In this document: piece by piece, positions 1,150 to 29,622 of the stretch
How the letters are laid out: every line of letters starts with the position of its first letter
How positions within the stretch are numbered: position 1 is the stretch's first letter
NCBI GenBank assembly: GCA_001600635.1
Contig: BCKL01000002.1
Location: forward strand, 112,458 to 176,457
DNA: 64,000 bases
Reading direction: 5' to 3'
DNA from: Leucosporidium creatinivorum
Lineage: Eukaryota; Basidiomycota; Microbotryomycetes; Leucosporidiales; Leucosporidiaceae
Program-made: the position numbers and the translations under genes
Notes under the pieces: model-generated
The model's database searches: none
The model's input: the letters and a program-made list of their open reading frames with translations, nothing else
Told to the model about the DNA's origin: nothing

Positions 1150-1995
1150 CTCACCTCTCACCGCAAACATCACGCCGGTCTCTTCAGCAGCAAGCTCTAC
1201 TCCACCTAGCTCTCCCGGCGTCCAAATCGAATGTAATTGGCGCGGCAGGACGAGCGAGCGAAGAGCGGGCGCCTCGGTGATGAAGTCGATCGCTGCGTTG
1301 GCGGTGATCTCGTGAGAAGACGAGGAGCGGTCGAAAAAGTCGACTCCAGAGATTGAGAGGGTGACGAGGTGCTGAAGCGACTCGAGGAGTGGGATGTTGG
1401 GTGGAAGAGGCGCGCAGGGGCGAGCGCGAGTGGACCGAGTTGATGATGTAGGGATGTTGGAAGCGAGGGGGTGAGAAGAAAGGATTGGTGTTGGATGTGA
1501 GGAGTGTTAGGAGGTTCGGATGGATTTGTTCTAGATCACTTTGGCCGTAGAAAGACTTCGGCGCCGCGCAGGGACTCTCTTCTTCATCGAGTCCCGCTCA
1601 TCTCAGTCGCGCGCCAGGTTAGTACACTTCATTGCAAGATAGATCGAGTCCCGCTCATCTCAGTCGCGCGCCAGTATTATCACATGGGAGAATGGCGCTG
1701 CTGTCGTAGCCGACAAGACCGAGTCGGAGGGATTGAACGTCTCGAAGCGCGCAGAGAGTCGGCCACCAGTGATCCGCTAGCTCGGTGGAGTGTTTGGTAG
1801 CAGTGATGGGAGTGAGCGAAAGAAGTTGAGGGGCCATCGCGGCCACCGGATCGACACTTGAAGTTGAGCGCGCCGAGGGCGGGTACTGCTCGCCGCCGCT
1901 CGTCGCTCGAGCTCGTCTTGACACAACGCCGTCTCCCTGCCCCTCGCATCGTCAAAGCCGCAAACCGAGCGAAGTCACAGTAGCACTTCAACGCT
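1150..1995 (-). pseudogene. F-box-like/LRR family remnant (C-terminal half)
   Basis: Minus-strand similarity to the C-terminal half of the neighbouring F-box-like genes is clear. A block at about 1700-1880 matches the APQLLSL...WWPTLCALRDVQSLRLG...GYDSSAILP region of the family. A second block at 1150-1390 matches the last ~75 residues (FITEAPALRSLVLPRQL...IWTPGELGGVELAAEETGV). The two are out of register and separated by unrelated sequence holding a 32-bp direct repeat. No N-terminal F-box segment is present, and the family stop codon is out of frame. This is a decayed copy, probably the oldest of the array. Confidence 0.75.
1586..1674. repeat. Pair of exact 32-bp direct repeats
   Basis: The same 32 bases occur at 1586-1617 and 1643-1674 (unit starts ATCGAGTCCCGCTCATCTCA), 57 bp apart start to start. 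They sit at the point where the F-box-like remnant loses its reading frame. A local duplication is the simplest explanation for part of the damage. Confidence 0.85.
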
Positions 1996-2086
1996 CTCCG
2001 CCGTGCGGTCCTGCAAGGCTGGGAGAGACGTGAGAAGTCAGCCTTCGCTCGTCGACCCGCTCCTCAACGAAGGAGATACTCACCCT

Positions 2087-3352
2087 TCAGCCCAACAGAA
2101 ACCACAACCCTCTTTGTTCCGCAGCGGACCTAACTCGCTCGAGCTCCTCCTTGCTCCAAACCTGTCCGAGCTGACGAGGAAGCGTGAGCCGTTTGAGGGC
2201 AACGGCGCCGTTGATGAAGTCGACCGCCAATCCCGCCGTGAGCTCATGGAAGGGCGCATCCTTGGGTTCGACTAATGACTGGCCGATGGAGAGGCGATGG
2301 AGATGGGCGAGGGGGCGGAGGAGGGGGAGGATCTCGGCGAACGAGAAGCCGAGGATCCCAAGGGAGAGCGACCGGACATCCTTCAGAGCCTCTAGTGTAT
2401 TGCAGAGGTAGTCCTTGTTGATGAACGGCTTATCGAGATACCGATCGCGTTCGAGGATGATGGACAAAGACAAGAGACGAGGCGCCACGGCGGTAAGCGA
2501 CGAGGAGATGGCGGAGGGGAGGGTGCCGAGTGTAGTGCTGCTGCAAGAGAGCTTGCCGAGGTCGAGATGGAGGAGAGTCGAGGTTGTCGAGGCCAGAAGA
2601 GCGCCGAGAAGCACATTATCGCCATCGCGTTCCAGGGGAAGACGGAGCCGAGTGAGGGCGATCGGAGATGGAGCTGAGAAGGTCGAGCGGCGCCAGATCT
2701 GCCGTGTGGCCGTCAGCGCGAAGCTTTGCAGTTTTGGCAAGCCTGTCAAAAGGCTGGAAGTGTCATCTGTGTTAGCGCGGGCCGGACTTGAGCAGAGAGG
2801 TCGTTCGGCTCACCTCGAGACATCACTGCTGGTGCGCAACAAGGTGGCGCAGCTGTCGATATCCAAACTCTCCAGCCTATCGGCCTTCAGAAGCGCCGAG
2901 CGGAACGCCAAGATCCCTGCTTGCGACAGCCACCGGTCGCTGCCGCCTCCCACCAGCTGCAGGCTCTTGAGCCGAGGGCAGGCGCCGAGGATCTGGGCCT
3001 CCGCTGTCCACACGGGGGGAGCGTCATGCTTTTGCCTTCGTATGCTGAGCGAACGAGCGCCCCACCCTCGCTGTGGTGGTCCTCCGACGAGATGCTTGAG
3101 CAGGCGACGCGTTGAGCGCAAGTCTTTCACCGCGAGCTCCCTCCTGAGGTCGACCGCGCCGTACCATCCTATACAGACTTTGGCGAAGCTTATCCTCGCC
3201 TGCTGCCTCTCCCAGCTGTCCAGTCCTTCGAGCAACGATCTGAGGATTTGGGCGAGCGTTTCCTGAGGAAGCGACGCGACGAGCGAGTCTGTAGGCTGTT
3301 GAGGGCGGGCTGTAGTCGAAGTCGTAGCTTCTTGATCCTGCTGTGCTTCCAT
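2087..3352 (-). CDS. F-box-like/LRR protein, family copy B
   Basis: The gene has two exons (3352-2814 and 2753-2087) and encodes about 401 aa. The 60-nt intron runs from GTGAGC to CTTCCAG, which joins in frame. Residues ~20-80 form an F-box-like segment (SLPQETLAQIL...LDSWERQQARISFAKVC.GWYG), the usual docking surface for Skp1 in SCF ubiquitin ligases. The rest consists of irregular leucine-rich repeats with a conserved end (VDFINGAVALKRLTLPRQL). The start is the ATG shared by all copies, just after a CAGCTCAGC leader. Three nt after the TGA a further intron begins (2083-2011, GTGAGT, CTGAC branch, TTGCAG end), so the 3' UTR is spliced. F-box function is inferred from sequence pattern; the target is unknown. 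Confidence 0.75.
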
Positions 3353-3552
3353 GCTGAGCTGCAGCCGACGAGACGAGAGAGAAATTGAAGCGAGAAGGGG
3401 AGAAAGAGCGGCGGAGACGTCGACGGCTCGAACTGGAGGAAGGGGGTCGAGGACGAGGTGCAGGAATCGAGCAGGCTGGGCGCGTAAATCAAGATCTCTA
3501 CAGACGGTCTGCACACTCGAGAGCGACTTATGCTCTCTCTTTCGTCCCCAAC

Positions 3553-3764
3553 CATTCGACCGAGCTCAGCGATAGAAACGGTTGTAAACGCCTTCGTCTC
3601 CCTCCGCAGACAGCGGCATAGGGCTCAATAACTAAGCAATGCACGTCTCTCGTCCCTTTTGCCCCAGAAAGCATCGCCCGCCTAACCTTGCGCATCTGCC
3701 AGAAGGAGAGGAGCGAGTCACAGTCAGCGAGCCTCCCGAAACGCCGAGAGAGCGAGCAGCTCAC
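3553..3764. repeat. 212-bp duplicated block, copy 1
   Basis: This block is near-identical to 28122-28333, with about 5 differences and no length change. It covers the 3' UTR intron of copy C and the distal promoter of copy B. The other copy covers the same parts of copies G and F. The identity shows that a two-gene unit, not just one gene, was duplicated recently. Confidence 0.9.
3557..3572 (-). promoter_or_regulatory. Conserved upstream motif of copy B
   Basis: In the direction of the gene this reads close to TCGCCGAGCTCGGTCG (here with one change), 205 bp upstream of the ATG. The same 16-bp near-palindrome occurs in the same orientation 205-224 bp upstream of all six family members that keep their 5' ends. 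It is probably a transcription factor or core-promoter site; this is inference. Confidence 0.5.
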
Positions 3765-3766
3765 TA

Positions 3767-5063
3767 TTACTGCAGCTTAAACCTCAAGCCTTTATTTTCG
3801 GCAGCAACTTCCACCTCGCCGAGCTCCTCGGCGGTCCAGATAGGGCGGAGTTGGTGAGGGAGGGCGAAGTATCGGAGAGCCGGCGCTTCGGCGATAAACT
3901 CGAGGGCGGCAGTGGACGTGAGCTTGTTGAAGCTGGGGCGGTTCTCGACGTCGAAGCGGTATGTGGAGCGAGGGCCTGGATCGGAGATGGCGAGGGTGAC
4001 GAGATGTTGCAGCTGCTGGAAGAGGGGGAGGATCTCGGCGAGGTTGTAGCCTACGCAGCCGATTCGGAGGGTTTGGACATCACGCAGAGCGCCGAAGGTC
4101 GGCCACCAGTAATCCTCGAACTCCAGTTCGGCGTACCAGGTTGCTTGCCCAATGGCGACCAAGGTGAGAAGCTGGGGAGCGACGGCGACGATGGGGGCGA
4201 AGGGTTCTGTCGGCTGTCGTCTAGGCTCAGCCCAGCTGTGATGGAACGCTTGGGAGAATTCGAGGTGCTGGATAGTGCGAGATCCAGCGACGAGGAGTGG
4301 CTCAAGCTCTGGCCTGCCCGCGCCTTCGGGAATTGGGAGCTGAAGGCGAGTGAGGGGGAGTGTGGGAAGGGTAGGTATGGGCGTCCTAGGACCCATGGTG
4401 AAGATGTTGTTGATTGAAAAGTCTTGGAGGCGAGGCCAGACGGCGCAGAGTCTATCGGAGGGAGGGTGTCAGCCTGGCCAGTTCGGCGCTCGGCGAAAGC
4501 GGTCATGCTCACTGGAGAAGCTCTCCGTAGTCCAACAGAGGCGATTCAGTCTCGAGGCTAGAGATGACGAACCCCCTAGGCGAAATGTGCTGCAGCGCCT
4601 GCGTGAGCGGCTTGCCCAGCTGGCAGCCATCTGTGCCGAGGTGAAGTGGGCCCGCCGCCGCGAGTTCCAACGATTCGAGCTGACGGCACGCGGACAGCAG
4701 GCTAGCGATCCGTTGACTCCTTCCTCCTCCAGCTGCCTCAATGCCCACGTTGAGCGACCGAACTCTTGCCCTCCGTGCGGCGCCTACACCTCGCTCGCTC
4801 AACGTCCGAGCGAGACGTTTGCCCATGTAGGTGTCCTTGACAACGAGATCCTTGCCTATCTCACTGACGCCGTACCAGGCTACAGAGACTCGAGCGAAGG
4901 GTATTCTCGCCTTCTGCCTCTCCCAGGCATCTAAGCCTTCGAACAACGAGGCGAGGATCTGAGCGAGCGTTTCCGTTGGAAGCGAAGGAGCGGGCGCGGC
5001 TGTGGGTTGTGGAGGGCGGGCTGTAGTCGAGCTGGTAGCTTGTTGTCCGCCTTTTCTTGCCAT
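3767..5063 (-). CDS. F-box-like/LRR protein, family copy C
   Basis: Two exons (5063-4513 and 4451-3767) encode 411 aa. The 61-nt intron runs from GTGAGC to a CTGAC branch and CGATAG, joining as LLQ-LCAVWPRL. The N-terminus MARKGGQQATSSTTARP is followed by the F-box-like segment (SLPTETLAQILASLFEGLDAWERQ...WYG) and leucine-rich repeats. The conserved C-terminal module follows (WWPTFGALRDVQTLRIG, ILPLFQQLQHL, FIAEAPALRYFALPHQL, IWTAEELGEVEVAAENKG). A 69-nt 3' UTR intron (3764-3696) begins 2 nt after TAA. The gene looks intact. It is the upstream partner of copy B, and the C-B pair matches the G-F pair. Confidence 0.78.
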
Positions 5064-5286
5064 GCTGAGCTGTAGCCGATGAGTCGAGAGCGAGAACAAA
5101 GTGAGGAGCGGGAGAGAAAGAGGGAAACACGGCTCGAGCTCGGAGAAAGGGCCGAGAGTGGACGGTTCGATGATGTGAAGAGGTGCAGAAAGCAAGACAG
5201 AGAGGCGCAGAGCAACGAGCCGATTCCTGTCCACCTTTCTGTATTCTCAAGAGACCGCTGCGACCGCTCCCTAGCCCTCAACCTCC

Positions 5287-5302
5287 GGACCGAGCTCGGC
5301 GA
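5287..5302 (-). promoter_or_regulatory. Conserved upstream motif of copy C
   Basis: The family 16-bp near-palindrome (core CCGAGCTCGG) lies 224 bp upstream of the ATG of copy C, in the same orientation as in its paralogues. Confidence 0.5.
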
Positions 5303-5474
5303 ACCCTCGCCAACAGCTGCGAAAGGATTGGCGAGCTTTTGTAGCGTGTGTTGCAGCAAATCTTGAGAATAGTCCTTCTAACCACACATATCAACAATGG
5401 CAGCGATACTCCTGCGCAGTCTCCCAGCTCTGCTCCCCTCCTTCACCAACGCCGAGCTCTATCTCCGACCTCCT

Positions 5475-6617
5475 CTACAGCCCACTAACGAACCACCCTC
5501 CCAACGCAAACATAAACCCACTGAGCTTCTCCGCCGGCGAGTGGAAGAACAAGCTCGTCATCAACAGCATCCACCACCAAATCGCCATCAACGCCATCGT
5601 GCCGTAGACGGTGACCTGGATGAGCCCCGGCGCTTCGACATCCTTGACCTCGTAGGTCGTTGGTGGCGCATCGGTAGTCGAGTTGGGATGAGGAGTCGAG
5701 CGGAACCAGGAGGGGAAGACGAGGGGAAGGGAAGGGGCGATGAGTTGGTAGAGGAAGAGCGAGGAGTGGACCATCATGAACGTATGGCCCGAAACGTCGT
5801 GTCCGCCCCTCCAGTACTCTCCCTTCGCTCCCGAGCAGGCTGCACCAGCGGCATCTCCCTGCAATCCGACGAAAGCATCGCTCGATCCCAACGCCGAAGG
5901 GACGCAGGAAGCGCCGGTGATGAGGAGGATTTGCTTGGAGATGGAAGGGTAGGATACGCCGAACCAGGTGGATTGGGTGAGGTAGTACCAGTACAGCGTG
6001 GCGAGGAGGTAACGGCGAATGGTCGAGAGAAGGGTGGATAAAGGCGTGGGGCCGTTGAGCGAGATGCGTTGGGCGGTGGTCGGTTTCGGGTGGAAGAGGA
6101 AGGAGATGATTGAGTGGAAGAAGAAGGCGCCTGTAGTCCACGCCCAGGCTTGCTTGACGAACAGCTGATTGAGGATGTTGCGCTGGAGGGGAAGAAGCCG
6201 GAGCGGGTCAGCGATTCAGCTCCGAGATGAGCTACCGCGCTACAGCAGCAATAGAACATTGTACACCATGTTACTCACCTTGTCTGCAAAGTAAGGCAGG
6301 GTAGGAACGGGGAAAGCCCTCTCCGCGCTGGCCACAATCTTCTGTCCCATCTCCCAGCGGCTGAGCTGACTGGCGGGGATCCTCGACCGGAACGTCGTCA
6401 AATCGGCCGAAGTAACGTACACCGATACAGCCGATCCTACGACCACGGTGAAGAGGAGCACCGACGCCAACGGGCGGAGCAGCGGCGTGCGCGAGGTGGG
6501 AGGTGGTGCAGCTCGTCGTTGCACGGCTGTAGGCGAGTAGCCTTTCTGCGCTTGGGCTACAGCTGCTTGTGAGGGTGTCGCATTCCGTGCCCGTACTGCT
6601 GTAGGTGTAGAGCTCAT
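5475..6617 (-). CDS. SCS3: FIT/Scs3 family lipid-droplet protein (acyl-CoA diphosphatase)
   Basis: Two exons (6617-6279 and 6182-5475) encode 348 aa. The 96-nt intron is GTGAGT...CTGAC...CTCCAG. The protein is strongly hydrophobic, with about six predicted membrane spans. The first lies near residues 45-65 and the last two flank WWWMLLMTSLFFHSP. The family signature is clear in GGHDVSGHTFMMVHSSLFLY (about residues 225-245), which holds the conserved His of FIT proteins. A second conserved His lies in FFHSPAEKLSG. FIT2/Scs3 proteins sit in the endoplasmic reticulum, cleave fatty acyl-CoA and are needed for normal lipid-droplet budding and phospholipid balance. An N-terminal tail of ~45 mostly polar residues precedes the first span. 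Confidence 0.88.
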
Positions 6618-6810
6618 CCTGGTCGTGTCGTCGAGGGCGAAGGAGGCAGAGCAGTTGGATGACGCGGCGGGGCGAAGTGTACAGCGAGAAAGGCCTCCTA
6701 TTCTGGCACAAAGCTACAGAGCTCGCCGAGGGCTATTCTGAGAACTCTGATCTGCAGCAGCATTCAGCCGAATGTCAGGCTCGCTGCAGCTCCGAACTTC
6801 TTAAGACCTT

Positions 6811-6824
6811 CGCCGAGCTCGAGT
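6811..6824 (-). promoter_or_regulatory. GAGCTC-core motif upstream of FIT gene
   Basis: The sequence CGCCGAGCTCGAGT lies 194 bp upstream of the FIT start codon. It resembles the motif found upstream of the F-box-like genes, which suggests the element is not restricted to that family. The match is partial. Confidence 0.3.
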
Positions 6825-7022
6825 TGAGCCGAGCCCTACCTCGCTACTCTTACGCCCGTTGTCATGGTATATCGAGCCTCGTTCCAGCAGTATCCTCAAG
6901 TAGCGAGCTCATCGTATCCACCACCTTCGTGCCGCTCTATGATAGCGAAAGGCGAAGAGCATGTCAGCCTCATCGCCGAAGTCGATCGCCAGCCACCGCC
7001 GACTAGGCGCACGACTCACCTC

Positions 7023-8295
7023 TCACCCAAGCTTGAAGCGAACGCCCTTCTCCTTAGCAGCAGCTCTAACACGTGCGAGCTCGGCCCTCCTCCAGACCTG
7101 AGCGAGCTGACGAGGGAGGGTGAGAGTTTCGAGAGCGACGGCGCCGTTGATGAAGTCGACCGCCGCGGTGGAGGTCATCTGGTGGAAAGGGCCTTGAGCG
7201 TGTTCGAGTTTCGATCGGCCTATGGAGAGGGTGTGGAGGTGGGCGAGAGGCTGGAGGAGAGGAAGGATCGCCGAGGGGGAGAAGCCAAGTATGCCCAGCG
7301 AGAGCGCCTCAATGTCCCTCAAAGCCATCAGCATGGAGGTGAGGACGCTCAAGGGAGTATAGGTCATGTTTCCCCATAGAGAGCAGTCGAAGTCAGCTCC
7401 AAGCGTGACGAGTTGAGGCGCAATCGTTTCGAGCGAGCGGCCGAGCGTGCTGGAAATCCAGGCTAGGCCTCCTCCCGTTGTGTCGAATGTTCCAAGGTGC
7501 AGGTGGCGAAGAGTTGATTTGCTGGATTCCAAGGGCTCGATGTATGTGGCGTCCGAGCCAGAGGGCCAAAGAGGAAGATGGAGCTCGGAGAGTCGAGGGG
7601 TTGCCGTCTCGCAGAGAAAGTGGTGTGGCCAAGGGTCAAGCCTGACATCGGGGAGGCTGAGAAAACTGAGCTCGGGCCACCTCTTGAGGATTCTGAGGGC
7701 GGCAAGAGGGGATGAGATTGAGCACTCAATCTTGACGCCGCTCGGCGAGAGTCCTACGCACCCCATCAAATCGCCACCGTAGATGCTCAAGCGGTCACGC
7801 GAAGACATCTCAAAGTGCTTGATATTCGTGAGGTCCTTCAGAGCTTGCGTGAGGGGAGCGCGCAGGGGCACCTCGCGTGTCGCAAGGTAGCAGAAGCCGA
7901 GGAGCTCCAGCGTCCCAAGCTGTGGGCAGGCTTCGACGATGCTGGCAACGCGCTGGCTCCGTGCATCGCCTTGCCTTTCGATCTTGATACTGAGCGAGCG
8001 AACCCTAGCCCTCTGCTCGGCGCTCTTCTTGCCGAGCGAGCTGGCGCAGCTCCGCCATGTTGGTGTCCTTGACGGCGAGCTCCCTTCCGAGGTCGACGGC
8101 ACCATACCATCCTGCACACACTTGCGCTAAGCTCAGCCTCGCCTGATGCCTCTCCCAAGCGTCCAATCCTTCGAGCGACGATTCGAGGATCTGAGCGAGC
8201 GTTTCCGTTGGCAGTGAGGCGGCGTGCGAGTCTGTAGGTTGTTGAGGGCGGGCTGTAGTTGAGGTCGTAGCTTCCTGATCACACTTTGCTTCCAT
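7023..8295 (-). pseudogene. F-box-like/LRR family copy D, single frameshift
   Basis: This copy starts MEAKCDQEATTSTTARPQQP and runs through a good F-box-like segment (SLPTETLAQIL, WERHQARLSLAQVC, WYG) to about residue 80. Near 8040-8060 the reading frame shifts by one base. The original frame hits a TAG at 8005, while the continuation in the next frame runs open for >300 codons with strong family similarity (ARVRSLSIKI to FINGAVALETLTLPRQL). A likely intron lies inside (GTGCGT near 7757 to a CTCAG near 7691). The usual 3' UTR intron is kept (7019-6937, 3 nt after TGA). Because only one break is visible, it may be a very recent pseudogene or a sequencing error. Confidence 0.7.
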
Positions 8296-8517
8296 GCTGA
8301 GCTGTATTCGACGAGTCGAGAGCGAGAACGGAGTGAAAAGCGGGAGGGAAAGAGGGAGACACGGCTCGAGCTCGAGAAGGCTTGAGCTTGAGCACGGACG
8401 TCGAGTGGTGAGGTGCAGAAAGCGAGAAGCAAAGACGCAGAGCGACAAGCACAAGTCGTTTCAACCTCTTCGTACCCTCGAGAGAACGCTGCAGCCGCTC
8501 CTTCGCTCTCAGCAGCT

Positions 8518-8533
8518 CGACCGAGCTCGTCAA
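8518..8533 (-). promoter_or_regulatory. Conserved upstream motif of copy D
   Basis: The family motif (CGACCGAGCTCGTCAA on the plus strand, slightly degenerate at one end) lies 223 bp upstream of the ATG of copy D. Confidence 0.45.
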
Positions 8534-8631
8534 ATCGGTTGCAAGCTCAAACGCTGCTATACATCAATTATCGGCTCATGAGTATCGACTCCCGAGATAA
8601 ACCTACTATCGCACACATCAATCAAACATCA

Positions 8632-11600
8632 TCACCACAAGCTCTTCCTCCCCTTGGCCGTTCCCACGCTCTTCCTCCCACTCCTCGTCGTCGTGGTAGC
8701 TCCGACCTCCTCATCACTACTCTCCTCCTCCTCGTCACTACTCTCATCATTCCTCTTCGTCCACTTGGCCGCCGCAGGTGCAGTAGCCGGAGCGACCGGA
8801 GCCGTTCGACTCCTCGTAGTCCTCGCTTTCGGCGTCGAGGAGATGGCGTCCAACTGCGAGAGGGACTTCATCTGCGAGGCCGAGCGGGCGCCGAGTCGAG
8901 AGGTAGTCGAGGGGAGGGGTTGGGAGGCCGAAGGAGCTTTGGGAGTGGCCTTGCGAGCGGTAGGAGTGGGCTGGGAGGCGGAAGAGGTGGGAGCAGTCGC
9001 GCCGTTGATCGCGGCTTTGGGGGTGGACTGGACCGAAGCGGAAGCACCGCGAGTGGTGCGCTTGGCGGCGGCGGTGGCAGCTGCTCGGGGCTTGGTGGGT
9101 CCTGAGGGGCCGGGAGAAGGAGAGCGAGTGGTAGCGCGCGAGGCGGCAGAGGAGCGAGTGAGGCGACCGCTGGGGGCAGGAGAAGGGGAGCCGCCGTGGA
9201 GGGTCTGTAGTTGAGGAAAGGGAAGCGAGGTCAGCGAAAAGAGAGCAGACGAGGCGACGAGAGAGCGAGAACTAACCTGGAGACCGCTCTCGTCGTCGGT
9301 CGGCGCGGTGACGACAATCTTCTGGGGTGTATCTGCTTGATCCATGTGCTCCGAGAGGCCCTTGGGGAGTCCGTTCCCGTCGACAGGGAAGGCGACTGTG
9401 AGGCGGGGAAGAGGAAGTCAGCTCGGCGCTCGATCGGCCACACCGGTGAGAGCAAGACCCACCTTGCGTCTGATCCCACGGATCCATAGACTCATTCTGC
9501 ACCTCCCTCAACTGACTTTCCCCCGGCTGTCCTAACGCCTGACTCTCCTCCACCTGCGACGCCACCAAGAACAACGGGCTATCCTTTTGCGGCAGTCCCT
9601 GCCATTGACTCTCCTCGCTCGTGGGTTGAGCTTGGCCTTGAGCAAGGTTGGGCGACTGGGTCAACTCGTCCGGCTCGAACGAGTTGTCGCCGGCTTGAGA
9701 GGAGGCGGCGGAGCCGATGGCGGAAAGGCGGTTGTAGTGAGGTTGGGGCTGCTGGGAGGCGGATTGTGAGGAGAAGGTGGGCGCCATGGCGGCGGAGGAG
9801 GGAGGGAGGTCGACGTGGCCGTTGGCGGTGGTGGAAGGAGTGCCATTGAGTTTGGGCGAGACGAAGCCGAGAGCATCGTCGCCATTGACGCGCGAGTTGG
9901 AGACGACGTTAGTGGCCATCTCCTCGTCCTCGTCGACGGTGTCGGGCTCTTCGGAGCTGTCCCTGCTCTTGCCGTTGGGCGCCTTCTTCTTGGCCACTCG
10001 GGGCGTGCCCTCGACCGAGGAAGCGACGGGCGAGAAGTTGCTCGAAGCACCGTCCTCATCATCTCCACCTCCGACGACCTTGCCCTCCTCATCGTCATCC
10101 TGGGGTAAGACGTGAGCGATGCTCAGCCTCTTCCTCGGCTGACTCTGCGACAATAGCTGGTCGAACTCGTCCTCCTCGTCGGCGGGCCTCACAGTCGACT
10201 GGGAGAGCTGACTCTGGTTCCTTCTCGGGGAAGTGACCTTTCCGAGGTTGCTCTTCGCCCTCGGCGTCCCCGGCTTGCCAAACGCAGCAGCAGCGACGGC
10301 GCTCAAACTCGTCCTCTTGACCCTCGGCCTGGCGTTCTGGGGCGCGAAGTCCTCATCCGAACTCTGCTCGTCGCTCGAGTCGTCGTCCGAGGAGGAGGAA
10401 TCCGAATCCGAATCGCCGCCGCCGATGGTGTCCTGTCGGCGAAGAGGGGGAGGGGCGACGCGCTCCTCCTCCTCGTCTTCGGGCGAAGCGGAGCGGGAAG
10501 GAGGGAGAGGGACCTCCTCGGGCTTGGTGGGCGACTTGGGCTTGAGAGCTTCGGGTCGTTGCGAGAGAGGGGCGTAGAGGTCTTCGGAAGGAGGGGCGGG
10601 AGGGGCAGGGGAGCTCGACTCGGCGGGGACGGAAGGTAGGCGAGTCGAGTTCTTAGCGGGCGAGCAATGCTGCTTGAGGGACAGCTCGAGCTCATCGGGG
10701 TCCTCCTCGGATGAAGCGACCGAGTAGCGAGACTTGAGGCTGTCGGCGCGAGCGAAGATGGCGGGCATGGCGATGATGGAGGTGGGAGCGGCGGCGAGGG
10801 AGGAGTGCTGCTCGGGTTCGGGGCTGAGGTCGCCGTTGGGGAGTTGAGGCTGAGCTTCGGTAGCGGCGGAAGGGTCCTCGTCCATCTTCTCGGATTCGGG
10901 CTCGGCCTCGACCTCGGGCTGAGGCTGGGCAGGCGAAGGAGCGGCGATGGGCTCGTCGACCTCCATGGCGTCGTCTTGAGGTTTTTCGACGGCGTCGAGG
11001 GCGGCAGTGACGGCCTCCTCGTCCTGGGTAGCGGGCTCGGGCTGGCTATCCTGCTCCTGCTCGGGCTCGGCGACCGGCTCCTCAACCTCATCGGCGGTGA
11101 TGGTGGGCTTCTCCGACTGAGTCTCGGCAGGGGCGACGGCGGAGAGACCCGCATCCGACTCGTTGCCGCCGTTGACCGACGACTGCCTCGAGGACCTGAG
11201 CTCCTCCTTCTCCTTCTTGCCGAGGCGGTTGGTGCGGAAGCGACGCTCCTTGGACGGGGAGGACTTGGGGTCGACGCTGGGGACGATGCCGTTGGGCTTG
11301 GGCTGCGAATCGGGGACAGGAGAGGGAGGGAGGGGAACAGCAGCGGCTGCGAGTTGCGAGTCGGAGACCTTGATGATGGGCTCCTCCTCCTCGACGGCGG
11401 GCGCGGGCGAAACGGCGACAGACTTCTGCGCCTCCTCGGCTTCCAAACGTTTCTGCTCCTTCTCGGCAGCTTTCCTCGCTTCCTGCTTCTCCTTCTTGGC
11501 CTTCTTCTTGGCGAGTCGCTCGGCCGACTCGGCATGCTCGCGAGCCTGACGCTGCTCATCCGTCTCTTGAGGCTGTGAAGCGAGCTCATCGACCTCCATG

Positions 11601-13225: not shown

Positions 13226-13743
13226 CGGTTCGGTGGGTGGTGAGAGAGTGGGAAACGAGTGGGCGTAAGAGTCGTGTGCCGAGACGTCGGGCTGGATTCT
13301 GTAGGTAATTGGAGAGCGACAAGAACAGCGAGAAGGGTCAGCGATCACGGTCGCTCCGGCGCAAGAGACTGGAGGCTGCTGCAGTCGCGCAAGCGCTGCA
13401 CAAAAATGTTCCCTGTGTAGCCTACTACCCCTGCTACCCCTCCAGCTATCAACCTGCAGCTTTCCCAGCCCTCGACGCGTTGTGTTTGCTCGCTTTTGGG
13501 CAGAGAAGCGAAAGAAGCGAGAAACTGACCTGTATTCGAGTAGGGAGAAGGGGTTAGTAGTGCAGAGGGGAGGCCTCTGCTGCCTGGTGTGCCCTGGACG
13601 AAGCTGTAGGCGAGTATGAAGCGACGACGAGACGATTGCAGAGCAGAGGAGCGGCGCCGTTCGATTTTCGAGCTGCGGGCGAGCAAAGGGCCGAGGCTTT
13701 CTGCTTCCGACGTCTCGCTTCTCCGCACTACACTGCTACAGAA
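13226..13743. promoter_or_regulatory. Divergent promoter region, large protein gene / SWC5
   Basis: About 520 bp separate the two start codons. On the minus strand a GTCAGT donor (near 13528) and a CTGACCC...CTACAG acceptor (near 13310) suggest a 5' UTR intron of the large gene. No further gene is visible. Confidence 0.45.
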
Positions 13744-15277: not shown

Positions 15278-16428
15278 ATGGAAGCACAGCAGGATCTACA
15301 AGCTACGAGTTCAACTACAGCCCGCCCCCAACAGCCCACAGACTCGGTCGTCGCATCGCTTCCCACGGAAACGCTCTCCGAGTCTCACATCCTCGCCGAT
15401 GGGCACTTTGGGCGACCGCGTGCGATCGCTCAGCGTGCGCATTGAAACAGAGGGAGGAGGGTGGAAGGCTCGAGTCGCTCGCCTGCTAGCGGCCTGCTTT
15501 CGACTGGAGGCGCTCGAGTTTAAACTGGAGCGAGAATCCTCGCTTGACAGAAGCGGCACCGACGGCGACGGCCCCTTGATGCTTTCGCCTCTCTTGGAAG
15601 AGCTGCAAGGCCTTAGGCTTAAGAGCTTCGCTATCTTAAGTCCTGTCGTCGAAGGAGTCTCCGTCTACCTGCTGTTCGAGTGAGTCGATTTTGAGCCGAA
15701 CCTTTAAAGGGCTGACCATCTCCTTACCCTCTCTTTGTCAGTCTTTACGCGCGTTGGCCCGATCTTTAAGTCATCAACCTACCGGCCGTTCACTCCACTC
15801 CTGGATTCCACGACGAGATGCGCCTCACCCTTCCCTCGCTTCCCCTCACTCGACTCGCACTCCCACTCTCAGACGCAATGTTTAAGGTAGAGCTGCCCCT
15901 CCTTTTGAAGAGTCGGCGTCCAACACTCTTCGCCATCTATCACTCGGTCCGCACATGATGGACGTGGTCGCCTTCACAGGAGGAGACGTCTCGGAGCAGG
16001 ACTTGGCGCCCGTCGCTGCTATTGCGCCTCAGCTTCTCTCCTTCACAGCCATCAGCGACGGCGACAAGAGCGATCTAGGAAGGTACGTGCTTACCGAGCA
16101 CTGGCGGGAGACGCTGTGTGCTCTTCGCGACGTCCGAGAGCTCAGCGTCGGCATCGTCGGATATCAGCTCGGCGACATTCTCCCCCTCCTGCAGCGATTG
16201 GGCCACCTCGCCGTCCTTTCCATCTCAGCCTCGCATTCAAACTGCACCTCCAACGCACCGCCTTTCGCTCAAATCACTGCCACCGCCGCGGTCAGCTTCA
16301 TCAAGGGCGCCGCTGCTTTTCGTTCACTCAGCCTCCCTCGTCAGCTCAAGGACGTGTGGACGAAAGAAGAGCTCGCCGGAGTCAGTACTACTACTGAGGG
16401 AAAGGGAGTGCGCTACCTGGTCCAATGA
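15278..16428 (+). pseudogene. F-box-like/LRR family copy E, decayed
   Basis: The leader and the first ~35 codons (MEAQQDLQATSSTTARPQQP, SLPTETL) match the family. The rest of the F-box-like segment is then missing: the next family block begins at about 15400 in another frame (GDRVRSLSVRIETEG). After an intron-like GTGAGT...CTGACC...TGTCAG (about 15680-15741), a stop and further frame changes occur. From 15955 the C-terminal module is intact (APQLLSFTAIS, LCALRDVRELSVG, ILPLLQRLGHL, FIKGAAAFRSLSLPRQL, WTKEELAGV). TGA is followed 3 nt later by the family 3' intron (16432-16510, GTATGT...CTGAC...TCGCAG). It is a pseudogene with an internal deletion. Confidence 0.75.
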
Positions 16429-16510
16429 GAGGTATGTTCAGGGCTCATCAGGTGATAGTCCGGCAGCTCGGCGATGGGGCTGACTTTCTCCTCTTCTTCT
16501 GGGTTCGCAG

Positions 16511-19230: not shown

Positions 19231-19557
19231 GAATGTATAGGACGATGCACAGCATCAGCAATCCATCTCCGAGATCGGTGTCAACCTGTCTGCTGTCGTG
19301 CAGAGAGACTTAGCGAGGCTGTTCGTCGCCGCTTCGCCGAACTCTCAGCCCCGAGACGCCTTCGCCACTCCTTGAAACGCTCGAGAAATGGGGTACTAAA
19401 GATGTATTGCGGGGTACAGCGTTTCTGCAAGTGTACGATGATGCACAGTCTCCAAGTGGGAGCTGGCGGCCCAAGATTGAGAAGAGAGGGAGGGGAGGGA
19501 GAAGACGGGAACGAGGGGGGGCTTTTGTAGAACGGAAAGGTGAGAAGGACTGGGAGT

Positions 19558-21798: not shown

Positions 21799-22869
21799 GC
21801 TGAGCTGTATGCGGTTCTGTAGGTTGATCTGTCGGTTAAAGCTGCTGAAAGCGAGTCGAGAGCGATAACGAAGTGTGTGGGGAGAGGGCAAGCAAGGAGG
21901 GAGCAAGGCAATGCGAAGTCAAGCGATGTTCTCCGACGCGCCAAAGCCAGCTGATCAGCATCTGATGACCGTGACGTTAGAGCGCAGCTGGGGCTCAAAA
22001 CCTTATCTTTTGCACCTCGGCAATTGGTTGAGCTCTCTTCCTGGCCTCCTCTTCGCCGAGAAGGGTTCTGTAGCTCTTCAAGGGGACTTCTAGGCTCTCT
22101 GGCGTGTCTGCACATTTGCCTCTCTCCGGTTGCTGCTTTGCTCCACCACGAACCAGGCCTGCAAGCCCTCTGCAAGCCAAGCCGACGGCGAGCGCCGAGG
22201 TTTGACTCGCGCTGCACCTGCCGTTAGAGGTATGGACGAGCGACTGGCAAGATCTGGGGACCTTGAGGATCACCGTGTGATGTCGCTTGAACAGTCGTGT
22301 ACAGTATGCTTTCTTTGCGAGGCTAGGCGGCCAACGAGCCGCTCATCCTAGCTCGGCTCGGCCTTCGCTATTCCCTCTCGCTGCTCTCGCTCTCACTCCG
22401 CTAGCACTGCAACTGCAAGTGAAAAAAGAGGCCAGTTGGTTTCGTGTTTCATCGTTCCTATCACTCGCCAGGCCAGCAGTCCATCGCCTCACTCCCTCCG
22501 CCCTAAACCACCGCATCGTAAACCGAGAAGACGAGAGCTAGATCCAAATATCGAGTAGAGACCAGAAGTGTGTGTATGAGGGGATGAAAGAAGAAGGGTG
22601 AGAAAAAGGAACCAGTATTACGCTCTCCCCGGGAGTAGCGCGCGCGAAGAAGGGTAAAGGGAAGAAGGGAGAGCCGAGGGGTTCGTATGCGAGTCCAGTC
22701 GAGTCGGAGAAGGAGGAATGTCGTTTATATGTGGTGGGTGGTGAAGTGAGTCGAGTCCAGAAGGAAGGTGGTACAGGTTGCGGTGAGAGGGAGAGTACGA
22801 AGGGAAGAAGGGCAGAGCGTCTATTCGGGGCGAATAAGTATCGGGCGAAGGCGAATGCGAGAAGTGTGA
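21799..22869. other. Intergenic region, CAR2 promoter and PBS2 3' flank
   Basis: About 1.07 kb with no recognisable gene. The part next to CAR2 has the CT-rich leader (21830-21900). The part next to PBS2 should hold its 3' UTR and terminator. I see no repeat or RNA gene. Confidence 0.4.
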
Positions 22870-25653
22870 TTAGGCGAGAGCGGGTGTTGAGGTCTTGGGG
22901 TGCTTCTCGCGCTGTGTCGGGGAAGGCAGAGGCGAAGAAAGGTCAGAGCCGAAACGAGCGAGCGTCGAGCGGAAGCTGGAAACTCACGTATGCGAGCGCC
23001 TCGGCGATCCAACCAGCCATATCGACATCCTTGCCCTCATCCTGCTGCAGGAAGGGGTGCTCCTGCGAGTCGAAAAGCCGAGTTAGCACTGCACCTCTTC
23101 GCTCCCCCTTTCCCTTCTCACGGTAACGACTCACCATCAACTGCTTATAATTCGGCCTTCTCGTCGCGCTCTTCTCCAAACACCTCGTCACGAAATCCTG
23201 CGCCACATCTCCATACCCGTCAGGCAGGGCGGGCGGGTCATCATGGACGATTGCGGTGAGTTGAGCGAAGACGTTCTGGTAGGTCTCGGGAGGGTAGGGA
23301 TAGTGCCCGATGGCGAACTCGATGATGGAGAGGCCGAGGGACCAGACGTCCGAGGAGGCCGTGTAGGAGGACGGTTGGCCTTGGGATTCGCCCTTGATGC
23401 GCTCGGGCTGTGGGAGAGAGGGAGGATCAGCGAGGGCTCGGCGATGCGCTCCAGCGAGCGAGAGAAGGGAGCTCTACTCACCGCCATGTAGCTCTGACAG
23501 CCGATGTTGGTCTTGGCCAGACTGCGGTCGAGCTGACCCGAAACGCCGAAGTCGCAGAGCTTGACGTAGCCCTTGCGGTTGATGAGGACGTTGGTAGGCT
23601 TGACGTCTGTTGTCATGGTCGAGCAAGGGGGCGAGGAGGGGTGGGAGGTGGTGTAGAGGACGGGAAGGACGGAAACCGAAGGGGGTGGAGGTAGCGAGCG
23701 AGAGCGAAAGTCAGCCTCGGTCTCCTCCACCTTCCCGAACAGCAGTCGCAAAACCACTCACCTCGATGCATAATCTTCAATTCATCCTTCAAGAACCTCA
23801 GACCCTTGACCACGCAATTCGTCACCCTCGCCAACACATCCTCCCGGACATCGCAGCCGGCGACGTGGTCCAGACTCTGCGCATCCATGTACTCCATGCA
23901 GTAGTACACGCACGACTCGATGAAGAAGGCGCCGTAGAAGTCGATGATGTAGGGCGAAGTGGCGCGGTGGAGAATATCGAGCTCGGTGATGATGGTTTTG
24001 AGCTTCGAGTCGTCCAATTCGAGGCGAATTTCCTGCGAAGGAGGGAATGAGGGAATTAGCGTATGCCCTTCGCCTTTATCGCTCTTTCATAATTATCATC
24101 CATCCTGGGCAGACTCGCTCGACGAGAGCCAAAACTCACCTTGAGCGCCATCGTGACCTTTGTCGGCTTGTGCCAGACCTTCTGCACGGTACCGTAATTG
24201 CCCTTGCCCAACTCCTCGAACAGCTCAAAGTCGTCCATCTTGATCTTGAAGGACGCGCCCGAGGAGAAGTCGACTCCGTCGGCGTGGAGAACGGCCTTCG
24301 AGGCGAAGTTGAGGCGGCCGGAGGGGTCGCTGTGGGTGGAGTAGACCAGAGTGGAGTAACGGGTGTGGTAGGTGCGTATTGGAGGTGTGAGGGAGGGAAG
24401 GGGACGAGACGCGAAAGTTAGCGAGCGCTCCGCCGAACCTCCTTCTCGGCGAGCTCAAACAGCGAAACGAGAAGAAACTCAACCTACACAATCTTCCTGA
24501 AATTGCTAAACGGCGTTCCACCTTCTTCCCTCGGACTCCCCACGCCCCTCTGTCCATCCTCAGACCCAGGCAACCTCATCCCTCCCCCTTCAAACCCATC
24601 CGCACTCCCCCTCCTCGCCGCCAATCCCAGCGCTCCCGGTCCACTCTCACTCCCACCCATCGCACTCAATTTCAACCCCGGCCCCGGTCGACGCCTTCCT
24701 GCCATTCCTCCTGCGCCGGGCATGGGTCGACCGCCGACAGGTGATGGTCCAGTCGAGGTCGTTCGGCCGGGGATGGTAGGTCCCGCACCGCCGGCGGTAG
24801 GGGGACGGAAAGTGAGAGATGGGGAAGCCGTCGAGGAGCTTGGTGTAGATGTACCCGTGGCGGGAGGGGTGGCGGCGCGAGAACCTGAGGTCATCTGTTG
24901 TTATCGAGCGAGAATCGGGCGAATGATGGCGAGAGGTAGAGTCAGCTCGGTCTGTGTAGTGCGCAGGAAAGAGACGAATGTCGATAGAGGTAGGACAGTG
25001 CAACTCACAGCAGCCATCTTGGCAGCCAAGGAAGGAGGGATCTTCATCCCTCCCGCGCCCAGCGGCGCTCCTCGAACGCCTGCCCTCAGTCCACCGGAAG
25101 GAGGCGCAGGTTTCCTCGCGGGGATCGTAGGAGGTGCCGTTGATCTTGGGTACAGCGGAGGGGCCGAGCCGCGCGCCGAAGGGGAGGTGGAAGGAGCGTT
25201 GGTCGGGGTAGGAGGGGGCGGTTTGGGCGTTGGCGAGGTGGGAGTGGGGACGGCGGAGGTAGGGAGGGGTGCACCTGGTGCTGCTGGTGCTGTAGGCATT
25301 GTCTGCAGGCTCGGCGGCGAAGCAGCTGCAGCTCCAGCGCTCGAGGCCGAGGCAGCGGCCGGAGGCGTCGTAGGGCTCGAGGCGGTGGGCGTAGTGTCTC
25401 GGGGCGGCTCGCTCTGCTGTAGCGAGATAGCCTCTACGCCGTCGTTGACGTCCTGTAGCTCTGCCACCTCGGTGATGGGCGGCGGCAGCTTGTGATCCAT
25501 GGGGTTGGCGCCCTCGAGGCCTTCTGCGTCAGCGTGTCCTGGCGTGGAAGGCGCGGTCGAGCTGGACGACAAGTCTGGCTCGGGGGCTAGTAAGGGTGAA
25601 GAATGTGCTGAAGAGGAAGGAGTCGAAGAAGCTGGCGAAGGCGACGAGGCCAT
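22870..25653 (-). CDS. PBS2: MAP kinase kinase Pbs2 (HOG osmostress pathway)
   Basis: Eight exons (25653-25009, 24894-24488, 24329-24140, 24032-23762, 23606-23482, 23407-23135, 23062-22988, 22911-22870) give 675 aa, every phase closing. The N-terminal ~370 residues are Pro/Ser/Ala-rich, as usual for the docking region of Pbs2. The kinase domain starts at [20 protein letters not shown]. It has the catalytic HRDVKPTN, the DFG in [11 protein letters not shown], the activation-loop [18 protein letters not shown] (phosphorylated by upstream Ssk2/Ste11 in yeast) and [20 protein letters not shown]. Pbs2 phosphorylates Hog1 in the cytoplasm under high osmolarity. The last coding exon is only 14 codons including the stop. 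Confidence 0.95.
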
Positions 25654-26480
25654 TGGGCCGCGAGCTTGAGCGCTTGAGGCCGAGTTGGTCGCGCGGTTTC
25701 GTCAGAGGTCGGCTGAGAGCCTTGTGCTGGCTGTAGTCGAGTGTGTCTGACTGCTGTAGGCGAGTCGTAGAAGCGAGCCAAACGAGTCGAGAAGCGAGAG
25801 ACGAGGTGAGAAGCGGGAAGAAGAAGGAGGGAGAGAGAGTCCTGCTCCCGCTGATCCTTTCTTGGGGCGACGAGGAGCAGCGTAACTGCAGCACGAGGTG
25901 GGAATATCTTCTTCTTCCCTCGGCGCAAAGGGTTTTTCTCGCATCCTTGCTCGGTACAGCCCTACAGCTCACTTCTCGCTCCCTTCTATCGCGCTACAAC
26001 TCTTCACAACACACCTCCACCCCACTAGCTCGCTCATATCAACCGCCTTGCTCTCGTGGCTTCTTAGCGGCAATTTCACAACGCTGAAGCCCATCAAGCG
26101 TTCATCGCAAAATCCGGCCGAGCTGGGAAAGCTCCAGCTGCCCTGCCCCTCGGGCTGCTGGCCTACAGCCGTGCTTCGAGTTGATTTTGTACCCGAGGAA
26201 AACTCTGCAGCCTGTTATACGCCGGACTTTCCTGCTTGGCGCCATGCCTCAGCCGCTCGAGAAAGGAAGGCTCGGTCGACCGAGCCCACAGCTACCTTGC
26301 CTGCTCCTCGCGGCGGCGGTCGGAGAAGTCTGGCAGGGTGCAGAGCTGCAGAGAGGGTATAGAGGGGTGTGGGTAGAGGCTGAGAAGTGGCAGTAGTCTG
26401 CACCGGATTCGTACAGACGGCGAGAAGGGTGGTCGGTGGTCTTGACGCCGAGCTCGCTCGTTCGCTGCAGCCGCTCCCGA
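25654..26480. other. Intergenic region upstream of PBS2
   Basis: No gene is recognised. It holds the CT-rich PBS2 leader (25700-25900), which resembles the leaders of CAR2 and the F-box-like genes, and the 3' flank of family copy F. A GCCGAGCT word occurs near 26118. Confidence 0.4.
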
Positions 26481-27915
26481 TCATTCCACTGCGCTCAGTC
26501 TGGGAGATGCTGTATTACACCTATTGGTCGAACTATCCTCCATCTTGCTTCCCCTCTCGCACCCCTCTGTGACGCCAGGGAGGGTCAGCAGCTTCGCCGA
26601 GGTAGACTCCAGAGGCCGAGAACGCACCTCTTACTCGAACTCGGAAGCTTACCCCCTTGTTATTAGCAGCGGCTTCCACGCTGTCGACCTCTTCAGCTGC
26701 CCAAACTGCTTGAAGCTGACGAGGAAGAGTCAAGCCTCGGAGACTCGGAGCCGGCGCGTTGGTGATGAAAGTCATGGCAGCAGGAGATATGAGCTTATCA
26801 AATGGCGTGCGCGTCGGTACACGTTCGTAGAGGACCATTCTGAAGGTATGGAGATGGCGGAAAGGCTCAAGGACCGGCAGCAGGTTGGCCAAGTCGTAAC
26901 CGACAGAGCCGAGCTCGAGGATCCGGACGTCTCGTAGCGCCGCGAGGGTCCTTCCTAAGCAGTCGAAAAGCTTGTAATCGCCAGTAGTGTCGTGCTCGAA
27001 GATGGCCGCGAATGACAAGAGCTGAGGCGCGACTCGCTCAATCGGTGCCATCATCTTGTCGTTGAAGTCCTCCAGCATGACGGTCTCTGCCCAAATGGGT
27101 CCGATAGCGAGATGCTTCAGAGTCATTTGTGATGAGGCGAGCAGCGAGTGCAGGACGTTGCGAGGGTCGGAATGGACTAGGGGGAGGTGGAGGGTCCGAA
27201 GCCTAGTAGCGCTGAGGGTGGAAGTGGCGTCGGCGAGAGCGTGGTCGTCGTGCGTGGTGACTCTACGCAAGATTAGAGTATCGAGGAGATGGCACGACGA
27301 TACCACCTTGCAACGGAGCTAGCGTCAACGCAGCTGCAGAACGGGCGCGCCGAGCGACACCTCTCACCTCACAAGCTCCGGTCCGTCGATGTGAAGCGTC
27401 TTGTTGAGGTCGGAAGGATCAATCTCAAACCACTTGAGCTTGCCCAGCTTGCACAGTGCGTCCCCAAGTGGATTTCCGAGCGCCTCGTTGCCAGCGCCGA
27501 GCGGGCGGCCGATGCCCACAAGCTTCAGCTCCTCAAGCTGGGTACAGGCGTTGAGCAGCTTGGCCAGACGTTTCCCTCCCCCAGATCTGGCTTCTTCGAC
27601 CTCTATCACCACCGAACGGACTCGATCCTTGCGCTCGGAGATGCTCTGTCGTAGCGAGCTCGACAAACGCTCGGCCATCTTCGTGTGTCGAACGACCAGC
27701 TCACGTCCTCCGTTGGCGACGGCGTACCAGCTGACGCATGCTCCAGCGAAACGCATCCGCGTCTGCTGCCTTTCCCAGGCGTCTAAGCCTTCGAGCGACG
27801 ATTCGAGGATCTGAGCGAGAGTTTCCGTTGGCAGCGAGGCGGCGTGGGCAGCTGTAGGTTGTTGAGGGCGGGCTGTAGTCAGGTTCGTAGCTTGCTGATC
27901 TTGCTTTGCTTCCAT
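26481..27915 (-). CDS. F-box-like/LRR protein, family copy F (stop codon lost)
   Basis: Exon 1 is 27915-27373 and exon 2 starts at 27306; the 66-nt intron GTGAGG...TTGCAAG joins as GPEL-VVSSCHLLDTL. The protein has the F-box-like segment (SLPTETLAQILESSLEGLDA, WERQQTRMRFAGACVSWY) and the conserved end (PSLRGLTLPRQL, VWAAEEVDSVEAAANNKG). At the place where the other copies stop, this one reads on (SFRVRVRG). The normally untranslated 3' intron (26627-26567, GTGCGT...CTGAC...TCACAG) is therefore now inside the coding region. Spliced, the protein gains ~25 new residues and stops at 26481. Unspliced, it reads through the intron and stops at 26533. Both outcomes are open. Confidence 0.65.
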
Positions 27916-28121
27916 GCTGAGCTTCGAGCGACGAGTCGAGAGCAAGGACCCAGCAAGAGGGGAAGAGCAAGAAAGAGGCGGAGACGTCGGCGGCTCGAAT
28001 TGGAGGAAGGGGGTCGAGGACGAGGGGCAGGGATCGAGCAGGCTGGGGAGCTATAGATGAGGATCTTTCAAGACGGACTACACCTTCGAGAACGACTTAT
28101 GCTCTCCACCTCGCCCCCAGC

Positions 28122-28333
28122 CATTCGACCGAGCTCGGCGATAGAAACGGTTGTAAACGCCTTCGTCTCACTCCGCAGACAGCGGCATAGGGCTCAATAA
28201 CTAAGCAATGCACGTCTCTCGTCCCGTTTGCCCCAGAAAGCATCGCCCGCCTAACCTTGCGCATCTGCCAGAAGGAGAGGAGCGAGTCACAGTCAGCGAG
28301 CCTCCCGAAACGCCGAGAGAGCAAGCTGCTCAC
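28122..28333. repeat. 212-bp duplicated block, copy 2
   Basis: Near-identical to 3553-3764. It covers the 3' UTR intron of copy G and the distal promoter of copy F, the same relative place as in the C-B pair. Confidence 0.9.
28126..28141 (-). promoter_or_regulatory. Conserved upstream motif of copy F
   Basis: A perfect copy of the family motif (TCGCCGAGCTCGGTCG in gene direction), 211 bp upstream of the ATG of copy F. Confidence 0.5.
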
Positions 28334-28335
28334 CG

Positions 28336-29622
28336 TTACTCCAGCTCAAATCTGACATCCTTCTTCTCAGCAGCAACTTCCACCTCTTTTAGCTCCTCGG
28401 CGGTCCAGATGGGATGAACTTCGGTGGGGAGGGTGAGGGATCGGAGAGCAGGCGCCTCGGCGATGAAGTCGAGGACGGCGGTAGGAGCGAGCTGGGAGAA
28501 GTCGAGTGTATTGGGGAATCGCGCGGTTCGAACGCGTAGATTGGTGATGGAGAGAATTCGGAGGTGTTCCAGTCGTTGAAGGAGAGGAAGGATCTCGTCG
28601 AGCTTGTACCCAAAGCAGCCGATGCGAAGGTCTTGTATGTCACGCAGAGCGCTGAGTGTGGGCCACCAGTGCTCGTCAAGCACCACGCCGGTCGCGTAGC
28701 ACCCCTCGCTAATCGCGGTGAGGCTGAGAAGTTGAGGGGCGACAGCGACGACCGGGGTGAAGGGCGCTGGCGAGCGGGAAAGAGAGAGGGTGGACGAAGT
28801 CGGTTTGGAGAAGTGGAGGTGGCGCAAAGTGTCCGATGCGGCAGCAAGGAGTGGCGCCAGCTCTTCCCTGTCGAGACCTTCGGGCACGGGGAGATGAAGT
28901 CGGGTGAGGGGAAGGGAGAAGGACGGCGGGAGGCGTGGGTTCATCAAGCTGGACGTGCAGAAGTTGTCGAGAGTGAGCATTTGCAGCTGGGGCCAGCCAG
29001 AGCAAAGCCTAACGTGGAGACCGCGTCAGTACTCAACTTTCGGCGACGACTCTCGCGCTTGTACTCACTCAAAGAATCCCGCAGTGCCCAGAAAAGGACC
29101 GCGTGATATCTTAGTGGTACTGATCATACGGAAGGTCCTAAGCGAGAGCTTCTGTAGGGCCTGCGTGAGCGGCTTGCCTAGCTGGCAATATCTCGAGCCG
29201 AGGTTGACTCCGTCCTCTGCGACTAGCTCCAGCGTGTCGATGCCCCGACAGGCTAATAGAAGGCTGGCGATCCTTTGGCTTCTTCCTGCCCCGTCTGCCT
29301 CGATGCCCACGCTGAGCGAGCGAATCCTCGACCTCTGTTCGGCGCCCTGCCGGCCTTTGAGCGTTTTGGCGAGGCGCTCCGCCATCTTGGTGTCCTTGAC
29401 GGCGATCTCCGTTCCAACTCCGACAATGCCGTACCATGCCTCACAGACGCACGCGAACGCCATCTTCGCCTGGTGCAGCTGCCAGCCTTCGAGCCCATCG
29501 AGCGACGCGTCCAAGATTTGGGCGAGCGTTTCTGTTGGAAGCGTGGCGCCGGGCGCGTCTGTAGGTTGTCGAGGACGGGCTGTAGTCGAGCCGGTAGCTT
29601 GTGCATCCTGCTGTGCTTCCAT
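28336..29622 (-). CDS. F-box-like/LRR protein, family copy G
   Basis: Two exons (29622-29069 and 29008-28336) encode 408 aa. The 60-nt intron GTGAGT...CTGAC...GTTAG joins as FFE-LCSGWPQLQML, the same place and phase as in copy C. The N-terminus MEAQQDAQATGSTTARPRQP precedes the F-box-like segment (TLPTETLAQILDASLDGLEG, ACVCEAWYG) and leucine-rich repeats. The conserved C-terminus is WWPTLSALRDIQDLRIG, ILPLLQRLEHL, FIAEAPALRSLTLP. A 3' UTR intron begins 2 nt after TAA at 28333. The gene appears intact and is the upstream partner of copy F. Confidence 0.78.

Follow-up and report, generated by a model that had tools for sequence, protein, structure and literature searches.

A predicted intron just past the stop codon is shared by most examined members of an F-box-like gene family in Leucosporidium creatinivorum

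The DNA analyzed here, referred to as the window, is a 64,000-nucleotide (nt) stretch of the Leucosporidium creatinivorum genome (27.7 Mb in 63 contigs, G+C content 0.597) corresponding to positions 112458 to 176457 of contig C2. It carries several copies, designated A to G, of a gene family that looks like F-box/leucine-rich-repeat (LRR) proteins and in which the stop codon tends to be followed, after a few nucleotides, by the complete signal of an intron, i.e., one lying in the 3′ untranslated region (3′ UTR). The features of these copies are as follows, in window coordinates.

1149 to 1161, minus strand: end of the C-terminal frame of remnant A (C2_m113553); the frame enters a GTGAGT donor at 1154, stop codon lost.
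2011 to 2083, minus strand: predicted 3′ UTR intron of copy B; donor GTGAGT at 2083, CTGAC, acceptor at 2019 or 2011.
2087 to 3352, minus strand: copy B gene, ATG at 3352 to stop at 2087; interrupted by an internal intron or a shift; ends deduced from three-frame translation.
3696 to 3764, minus strand: predicted 3′ UTR intron of copy C, 69 nt; donor GTGAGC at 3764, CTGAC, CAG at 3696.
3767 to 5063, minus strand: copy C gene, ATG at 5063 to the stop; internal interruptions; ends likewise deduced from three-frame translation.
6937 to 7019, minus strand: predicted 3′ UTR intron of copy D, 83 nt; donor GTGAGT at 7019, CTGAC, TAG at 6937.
7023 to 8295, minus strand: copy D gene, ATG at 8295 to the stop; the frame switches in the first third.
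15278 to 16428, plus strand: copy E gene; first part of the frame broken.
16432 to 16510, plus strand: predicted 3′ UTR intron of copy E, 79 nt; donor GTATGT at 16432, CTGAC, CAG at 16510.
26567 to 26627, minus strand: homologous intron of copy F (C2_m138990), 61 nt; GTGCGT, CTGAC; the frame runs in, stop lost.
28265 to 28333, minus strand: predicted 3′ UTR intron of copy G, 69 nt; donor GTGAGC at 28333, CTGAC, CAG at 28265.
28336 to 29622, minus strand: copy G gene, ATG at 29622 to the stop; an internal intron is predicted, its donor at 29068.

Direct reading and a script agreed on a full intron signal 2 to 3 nt past the stop in copies B, C, D, E, and G, as had been noticed in a previous inspection of the DNA by itself (the sequence-only reading). 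The spacing is 3 nt in B (stop TGA 2089-2087, then AGG), D (TGA 7025-7023, then GAG), and E (TGA 16426-16428, then GAG) and 2 nt in C (TAA 3769-3767, then TA) and G (TAA 28338-28336, then CG). The 73-nt intron originally given for copy B is possible with the acceptor at 2011, but this is the second one; the first past the branch site, at 2019, gives 65 nt. Remnant A does keep a related signal in the form of GTGAGT at 1154, but its stop is lost and no complete intron was found. Copy F, absent from the initial list, has its GTGCGT/CTGAC signal 7 nt past the expected end. Copy D has a second donor-like sequence, GTGAGA, that overlaps the stop 7 nt upstream of the main donor. The frame switch in the first third of D (8295-7023) indicates that this copy may be decayed or may contain an unrecognised small intron.

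Genome-wide, one C-terminal query gave 41 matches and two further C-terminal queries 32 and 45, while an N-terminal query gave 80, the N-terminal exons thus being related by sequence; only part of these 80 matches were traced to their 3′ ends. C-terminal profiles delimited 58 gene ends, on contigs C2, C5, C17, C50, C62, and C14. All comparisons within the family are between paralogues of this one genome. Copies were located via protein similarity and not via the intron, so that loss of a donor would have shown up. Introns were rated by a score for donor, branch site, and acceptor that was devised after inspecting the family, with a cutoff of at least 8.5 set by hand, and donors were sought up to 45 nt past the stop.

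In 44 of the 58 family ends the stop codon lies 1 to 36 nt (median 7) before a complete predicted intron. The score reached at least 8.5 in 42 of these, the other two being weak automatic choices (C5_p41739, 7.8, 125 nt; C5_p445335, 8.47). Donors were mainly GTGAGT (19 copies) or GTGAGC (11), acceptors CAG (35), TAG (7), or AAG (2), and the branch site CTGAC was present in 32; median intron length, as chosen automatically, was 66.5 nt. Small size combined with CTGAC branch sites would point to a basidiomycete. For three copies (C5_m82849, C5_p273573, and C5_m392590) whose first stop falls 6 to 24 nt before the end of the model, distance was measured from that stop. The remaining 14 ends comprise 9 with no stop before the intron, 1 ambiguous (C5_m367468), and 4 lacking a GT donor: C5_m204508 and C5_m658332 read GC, C62_m12635 reads AT, and C50_p1206 is short of one donor base and has, besides the damaged donor, an in-frame stop upstream. 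The two GC copies (C5:204508 and C5:658332, both minus strand), each diverged, retain a branch-like site and an acceptor and may have GC-AG introns that are still spliced. Beyond the 58, two more ends showed the same pattern (17 nt) and one had no signal.

The fixed spacing of 2 to 3 nt proposed by the sequence-only reading holds for the C2/C50/C62 branch, where it is mostly 3 nt, but other branches have 1, 7 to 8, 10 to 11, or 15 to 36 nt. Spacing is inherited by branch: it is 7 to 8 or 11 nt in one C5 branch and 19 to 20 nt in C17.

A stricter test, with a donor 0 to 25 nt past the first in-frame stop and a score of at least 8.5, was passed by 41 of the 58 family ends, no stop-lost copy among them. 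The same test was passed by a mean of 1.88 and a maximum of 5 of 58 ends in 50 Markov-1 shuffles, by 180 of 4,000 random window positions, and by 4 of the 177 open frames (150 amino acids or longer) from outside the family. One of these four is an unrelated plus-strand frame in the window, at 37979, that stops 4 nt short of a full intron signal.

The F-box-like character of the family, also suggested previously, was borne out by a Pfam match to PF12937 in one of five N-terminal exons scanned, that of C5:444091 (29.6 bits against a cutoff of 24.3). The same model fell below the cutoff in copies F, L024, and L036 (E values of 0.087, 0.028, and 0.021), with an unrelated model outscoring it in L024, and the scan gave no Pfam F-box match for the N-terminal exon of copy G, whose Pfam LRR match (15 bits) lay below the cutoff of 27. 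An AlphaFold model of the copy D C-terminal frame (mean predicted local distance difference test [pLDDT] score, 60.3) found TIR1 as its best Foldseek match (E value of 1.8e-5; template modeling [TM] scores of 0.40/0.28), followed by NLRC4, D3, and Skp2; at such low TM scores, the matches would support the fold class only. The family thus shares with the F-box/LRR proteins TIR1, D3, and Skp2, which are among the best fold matches of D, an F-box-like domain in one copy; in contrast to them, it is a fungal expansion with very low sequence similarity, and NLRC4 and other LRR proteins match about equally well. The copies are highly diverged, with a median pairwise amino acid identity of 23%. The model of D closes with a strand (residues 360 to 363; block pLDDT, 85) directly before the stop.

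A maximum-likelihood tree was built from the 58 C termini (129 columns out of 198; stars on 25 of the 55 inner branches; root not inferred). The nine stop-lost copies, including A and F, require nine changes on this tree, the ambiguous copy being excluded from the count. Because each of them is an isolated tip, stop-before-intron is, as far as the tree indicates, the older state within the family; it is present on either side of the deepest split. This agrees with the earlier idea of an ancestral feature. Genes that read on through this stretch to a later stop, which the sequence-only reading had named as counterevidence, do occur, namely the 9 of 58 copies and, by prediction, three remote relatives on contigs C3 and C30, but the family cases appear as derived losses. 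In the eight of nine stop-lost copies with a readable tail, the residues past the junction number 9 to 30 and are by eye mutually unlike.

Conservation of the splice signals was assessed against neutral decay simulated along a FastTree tree (300 runs per rate). GT was present at the donor position in 54 of the 58 copies. The simulations retained means of 20.3, 10.4, 4.6, and 4.1 of 58 with the neutral rate set to 0.25, 0.5, 1, and 1.5 times that of the amino acids, the largest count in any single run being 46. An in-frame stop within the 127 codons before the model end was found in 10 of the 58 copies, some having merely an early stop near the end; 9 of these 10 still carry GT, in keeping with the earlier observation that the signal survives in decayed copies. 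Among pairs at least 55% identical, aligned donor bases were the same in 31 of 40 while intron interiors differed by 4 to 49%, and 7 of the 9 pairs with donor differences involve the stop-lost copy C2_m85477; these pairs are nonindependent and come from the 52 copies with a recognised intron, a bias towards intact signals. Because loss of splicing would leave the protein unchanged, conservation of this kind would mean either that splicing as such is useful or that partly broken sites do harm. It is on splice-signal conservation by itself that the case for some role of the intron would be built.

The copies also appear to have exchanged sequence. C and G are near identical across the intron, the 3′ UTR, and intergenic DNA (29, 30, 30, 29, 30, and 29 matches in six consecutive 30-nt blocks; 177 of 180 positions between C 3754-3575 and G 28323-28144) while their C-terminal parts are only 61% identical, which suggests that a recombination or conversion tract has one of its edges close to the intron. 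The last exons of C2:28135(−) and C2:50875(+) have no differences at 59 fourfold sites and their introns differ at 5 of 57 positions; for C5:239726(−) and C5:270306(+) the figures are 0 of 56 and 15 of 49. In these pairs, conversion tracts may end at the intron.

A common 3′ UTR element behind the intron was considered and rejected: GAGCTCGG and TCGGCGA are enriched there but also window-wide, and GCTTGCTTG and similar words found behind the intron are missing from many copies. On both strands of the window TCGGCGA occurs 73 times (25.8 expected) and CTCGGCGA 44 times (8.4 expected). Of 54 family introns, 22 also contain TCGGCG, which frequently precedes the branch site.

The three remote F-box relatives, found on C3 and C30 with weak N-terminal query scores (45, 37, and 36 bits), have a predicted phase 1 intron that interrupts the coding sequence in roughly the corresponding position, followed by a short acidic last exon. 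The C3 relative reads ...NDVRF, then, past the junction, AEEWDSDDEELDD and the stop; one C30 copy reads ...KKAIEI followed by AEFWDSEDEELDD and the stop; and the other C30 copy ends ...LLDEDSEE. The C3 donor (GTACGT) was picked for giving that frame, the best-scoring donor being 7 nt upstream in a different frame; the first C30 copy has an apparent frame change further up; and the introns of these relatives, whose placement outside the family depends on the weak scores only, sit roughly 15 nt or further upstream of where the family has its intron. Homology of the two introns is plausible on this basis. In the simplest history, a coding intron ahead of an acidic last exon may have become the 3′ UTR intron when a stop arising just upstream severed that exon; the reverse order is conceivable. 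Many UTR introns have been proposed to have been coding when gained (PMC2586383). On C18, a relative with a lower score yet (27.6 bits) carries its stop 36 nt ahead of an intron. L099 and L097, remote F-box relatives on C3 and C30, end in almost the same acidic exon, WDS[DE]DEELDD, with the exact degenerate pattern found only there genome-wide.

The best explanation, in which we have middling confidence, would be that of a selected, spliced 3′ UTR intron that aids mRNA production. The genes would share one inherited spliceosomal intron at their extreme end, past the stop codon, with the protein ending on the last LRR strand and the stop coming directly afterwards or a few residues later. The intron would most likely be spliced out of the transcripts. 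With the junction no more than 36 nt past the stop, displacement of the exon junction complex by the terminating ribosome would let the mRNA escape nonsense-mediated decay (NMD). Selection would keep the splice signals through a benefit of last-intron splicing to mRNA production, maturation, or export, just as introns promote mRNA accumulation in Cryptococcus neoformans, where taking them out lowers mRNA for most of the genes tested (PMC3744415). The intron would have begun as a coding intron before the short acidic last exon, subsequently removed by the stop codon. The observed parts of this explanation are the position, the signals, the place shared through the family, and conservation beyond neutral expectation. 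A bolder version, which we advance only tentatively, makes splicing past the stop the selected trait in its own right: all of the F-box family would rely on a terminal intron that lies outside the coding sequence, safe from decay, and that was retained for its action on the mRNA when a stop severed the acidic last exon.

Several points weigh against a selected expression role. The conservation is among paralogues, and recombination between copies could help spread the intron; because the copies recombine, the selection argument is weakened. The stop has been lost in 9 of 58 copies and the GT donor in 4 of 58 (two reading GC). The genes seem to hold internal introns too, as seen in G, and the need for the last one is not obvious. 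In C. neoformans, CAS3 intron 12, the one 3′ UTR intron discussed in PMC3744415, is often retained, and insensitivity to intron loss is described there as probably independent of a UTR intron.

A general expression role remains the most likely reading. Next, though doubtful, is that the intron is a passive relic trapped in a fitness valley: inherited from the founder gene and of no use, it would persist because partly broken sites would jam the spliceosome or trap transcripts in the nucleus, and mutants would be purged. Stalled spliceosomes are said to feed RNA interference in Cryptococcus. The conserved signals would be accounted for without a positive role, and the predicted coding intron at about the same place in the C3 and C30 relatives makes an inherited origin plausible, as does the proposal that many UTR introns were coding when gained (PMC2586383). 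However, C62_m12635 and C50_p1206, with no usable donor, indicate that the valley can be crossed, and a crossable valley should also yield clean deletions, none of which was seen by eye among the 58 ends.

Regulated retention, in which the intron would be kept in the mRNA under some conditions with nuclear hold or altered stability as a result, is improbable. In C. neoformans, retention affects UTR introns more often than coding ones (PMC5006051), and the CAS3 3′ UTR intron, frequently retained (PMC3744415), is a case in point, but the donors in our family are mostly strong (GTGAGT or GTGAGC in 30 of 44), which does not suggest weak, regulated splicing.

Use in some copies, alone or alternatively, of an upstream donor over the last codons or the stop, which would place the stop inside the intron and make the downstream exon coding, is a slimmer prospect still. 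Tandem donors do occur, e.g., in D, C2_p104297, C5_m21018, and C50_p42674, and a GT scoring at least 2.2 lies within the 24 nt up to the stop in 22 of the 43 copies scoring at least 8.5 (one of them stop-lost); moreover, the reading frame enters or crosses the intron in 9 of 58 copies, and in the C3 and C30 relatives the predicted coding sequence extends across it. However, 42 of the 43 have either no upstream GT (3 copies) or one weaker than the downstream donor, the one that matches this donor in strength belonging to the stop-lost copy, and upstream donors were rejected on these grounds. A hidden C-terminal extension past the stop was likewise rejected: after predicted splicing, the coding frame is hardly more open than the other two (medians of 21, 17, and 16 codons; means of 34.8, 33.0, and 32.0), and the readable stop-lost tails are short and dissimilar. 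The stop as a recycled old donor (GTGAG to TGA) fits a pattern present in few copies only. Finally, chance matches to the splice consensus, which is short and passes at some random positions, can practically be dismissed given the shuffle, random-position, and open-frame controls (41 of 58 family ends against a shuffle mean of 1.9) and the branchwise inheritance of the spacing.

If spliced, the family intron would resemble the 3′ UTR introns exempt from NMD. In vertebrates, the rule for triggering NMD calls for a junction more than 50 nt past the stop (PMC3711448). Within the 45-nt search range, all 44 junctions fall under this limit, the largest distance being 36 nt, as anticipated by the sequence-only reading for the window copies. 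Like the exempt introns (less than about 50 nt from the stop), that of the family lies past the stop and leaves the protein unchanged by splicing; in contrast to them, it is common to 44 of 58 members of one family in one genome, with its spacing inherited by branch. In C. neoformans, 4.1% of genes have a 3′ UTR intron and introns of all kinds average 65 nt (PMC3744415). The 3′ UTR introns of Cryptococcus are described in PMC5851062 as poorly conserved and of mainly unknown role, with 90% lost or located elsewhere between two varieties. Both sets are fungal, small (65 nt on average there, for all introns; median of 66.5 nt here), and of mainly unknown role; turnover is fast there, whereas here the intron persists among paralogues at a median identity of 23%. 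A Yarrowia survey counted 118 3′ UTR introns among 2,421 (PMC13309789), and PMC2586383 calls such introns very rare. Retention of a 3′ UTR intron by dozens of paralogues that have diverged is unusual against this background, and among the titles and abstract openings that our terms retrieved from open-license PMC papers, none dealt with conservation of a stop-adjacent intron across a fungal gene family, F-box or other.

A single genome hence offers dozens of natural replicates of a stop-adjacent intron, together with variants in which the stop is lost, the donor is lost, or the spacing ranges from 1 to 36 nt. This set allows a direct test of selection for splicing past the stop and of how near the stop an intron must be to avoid decay.

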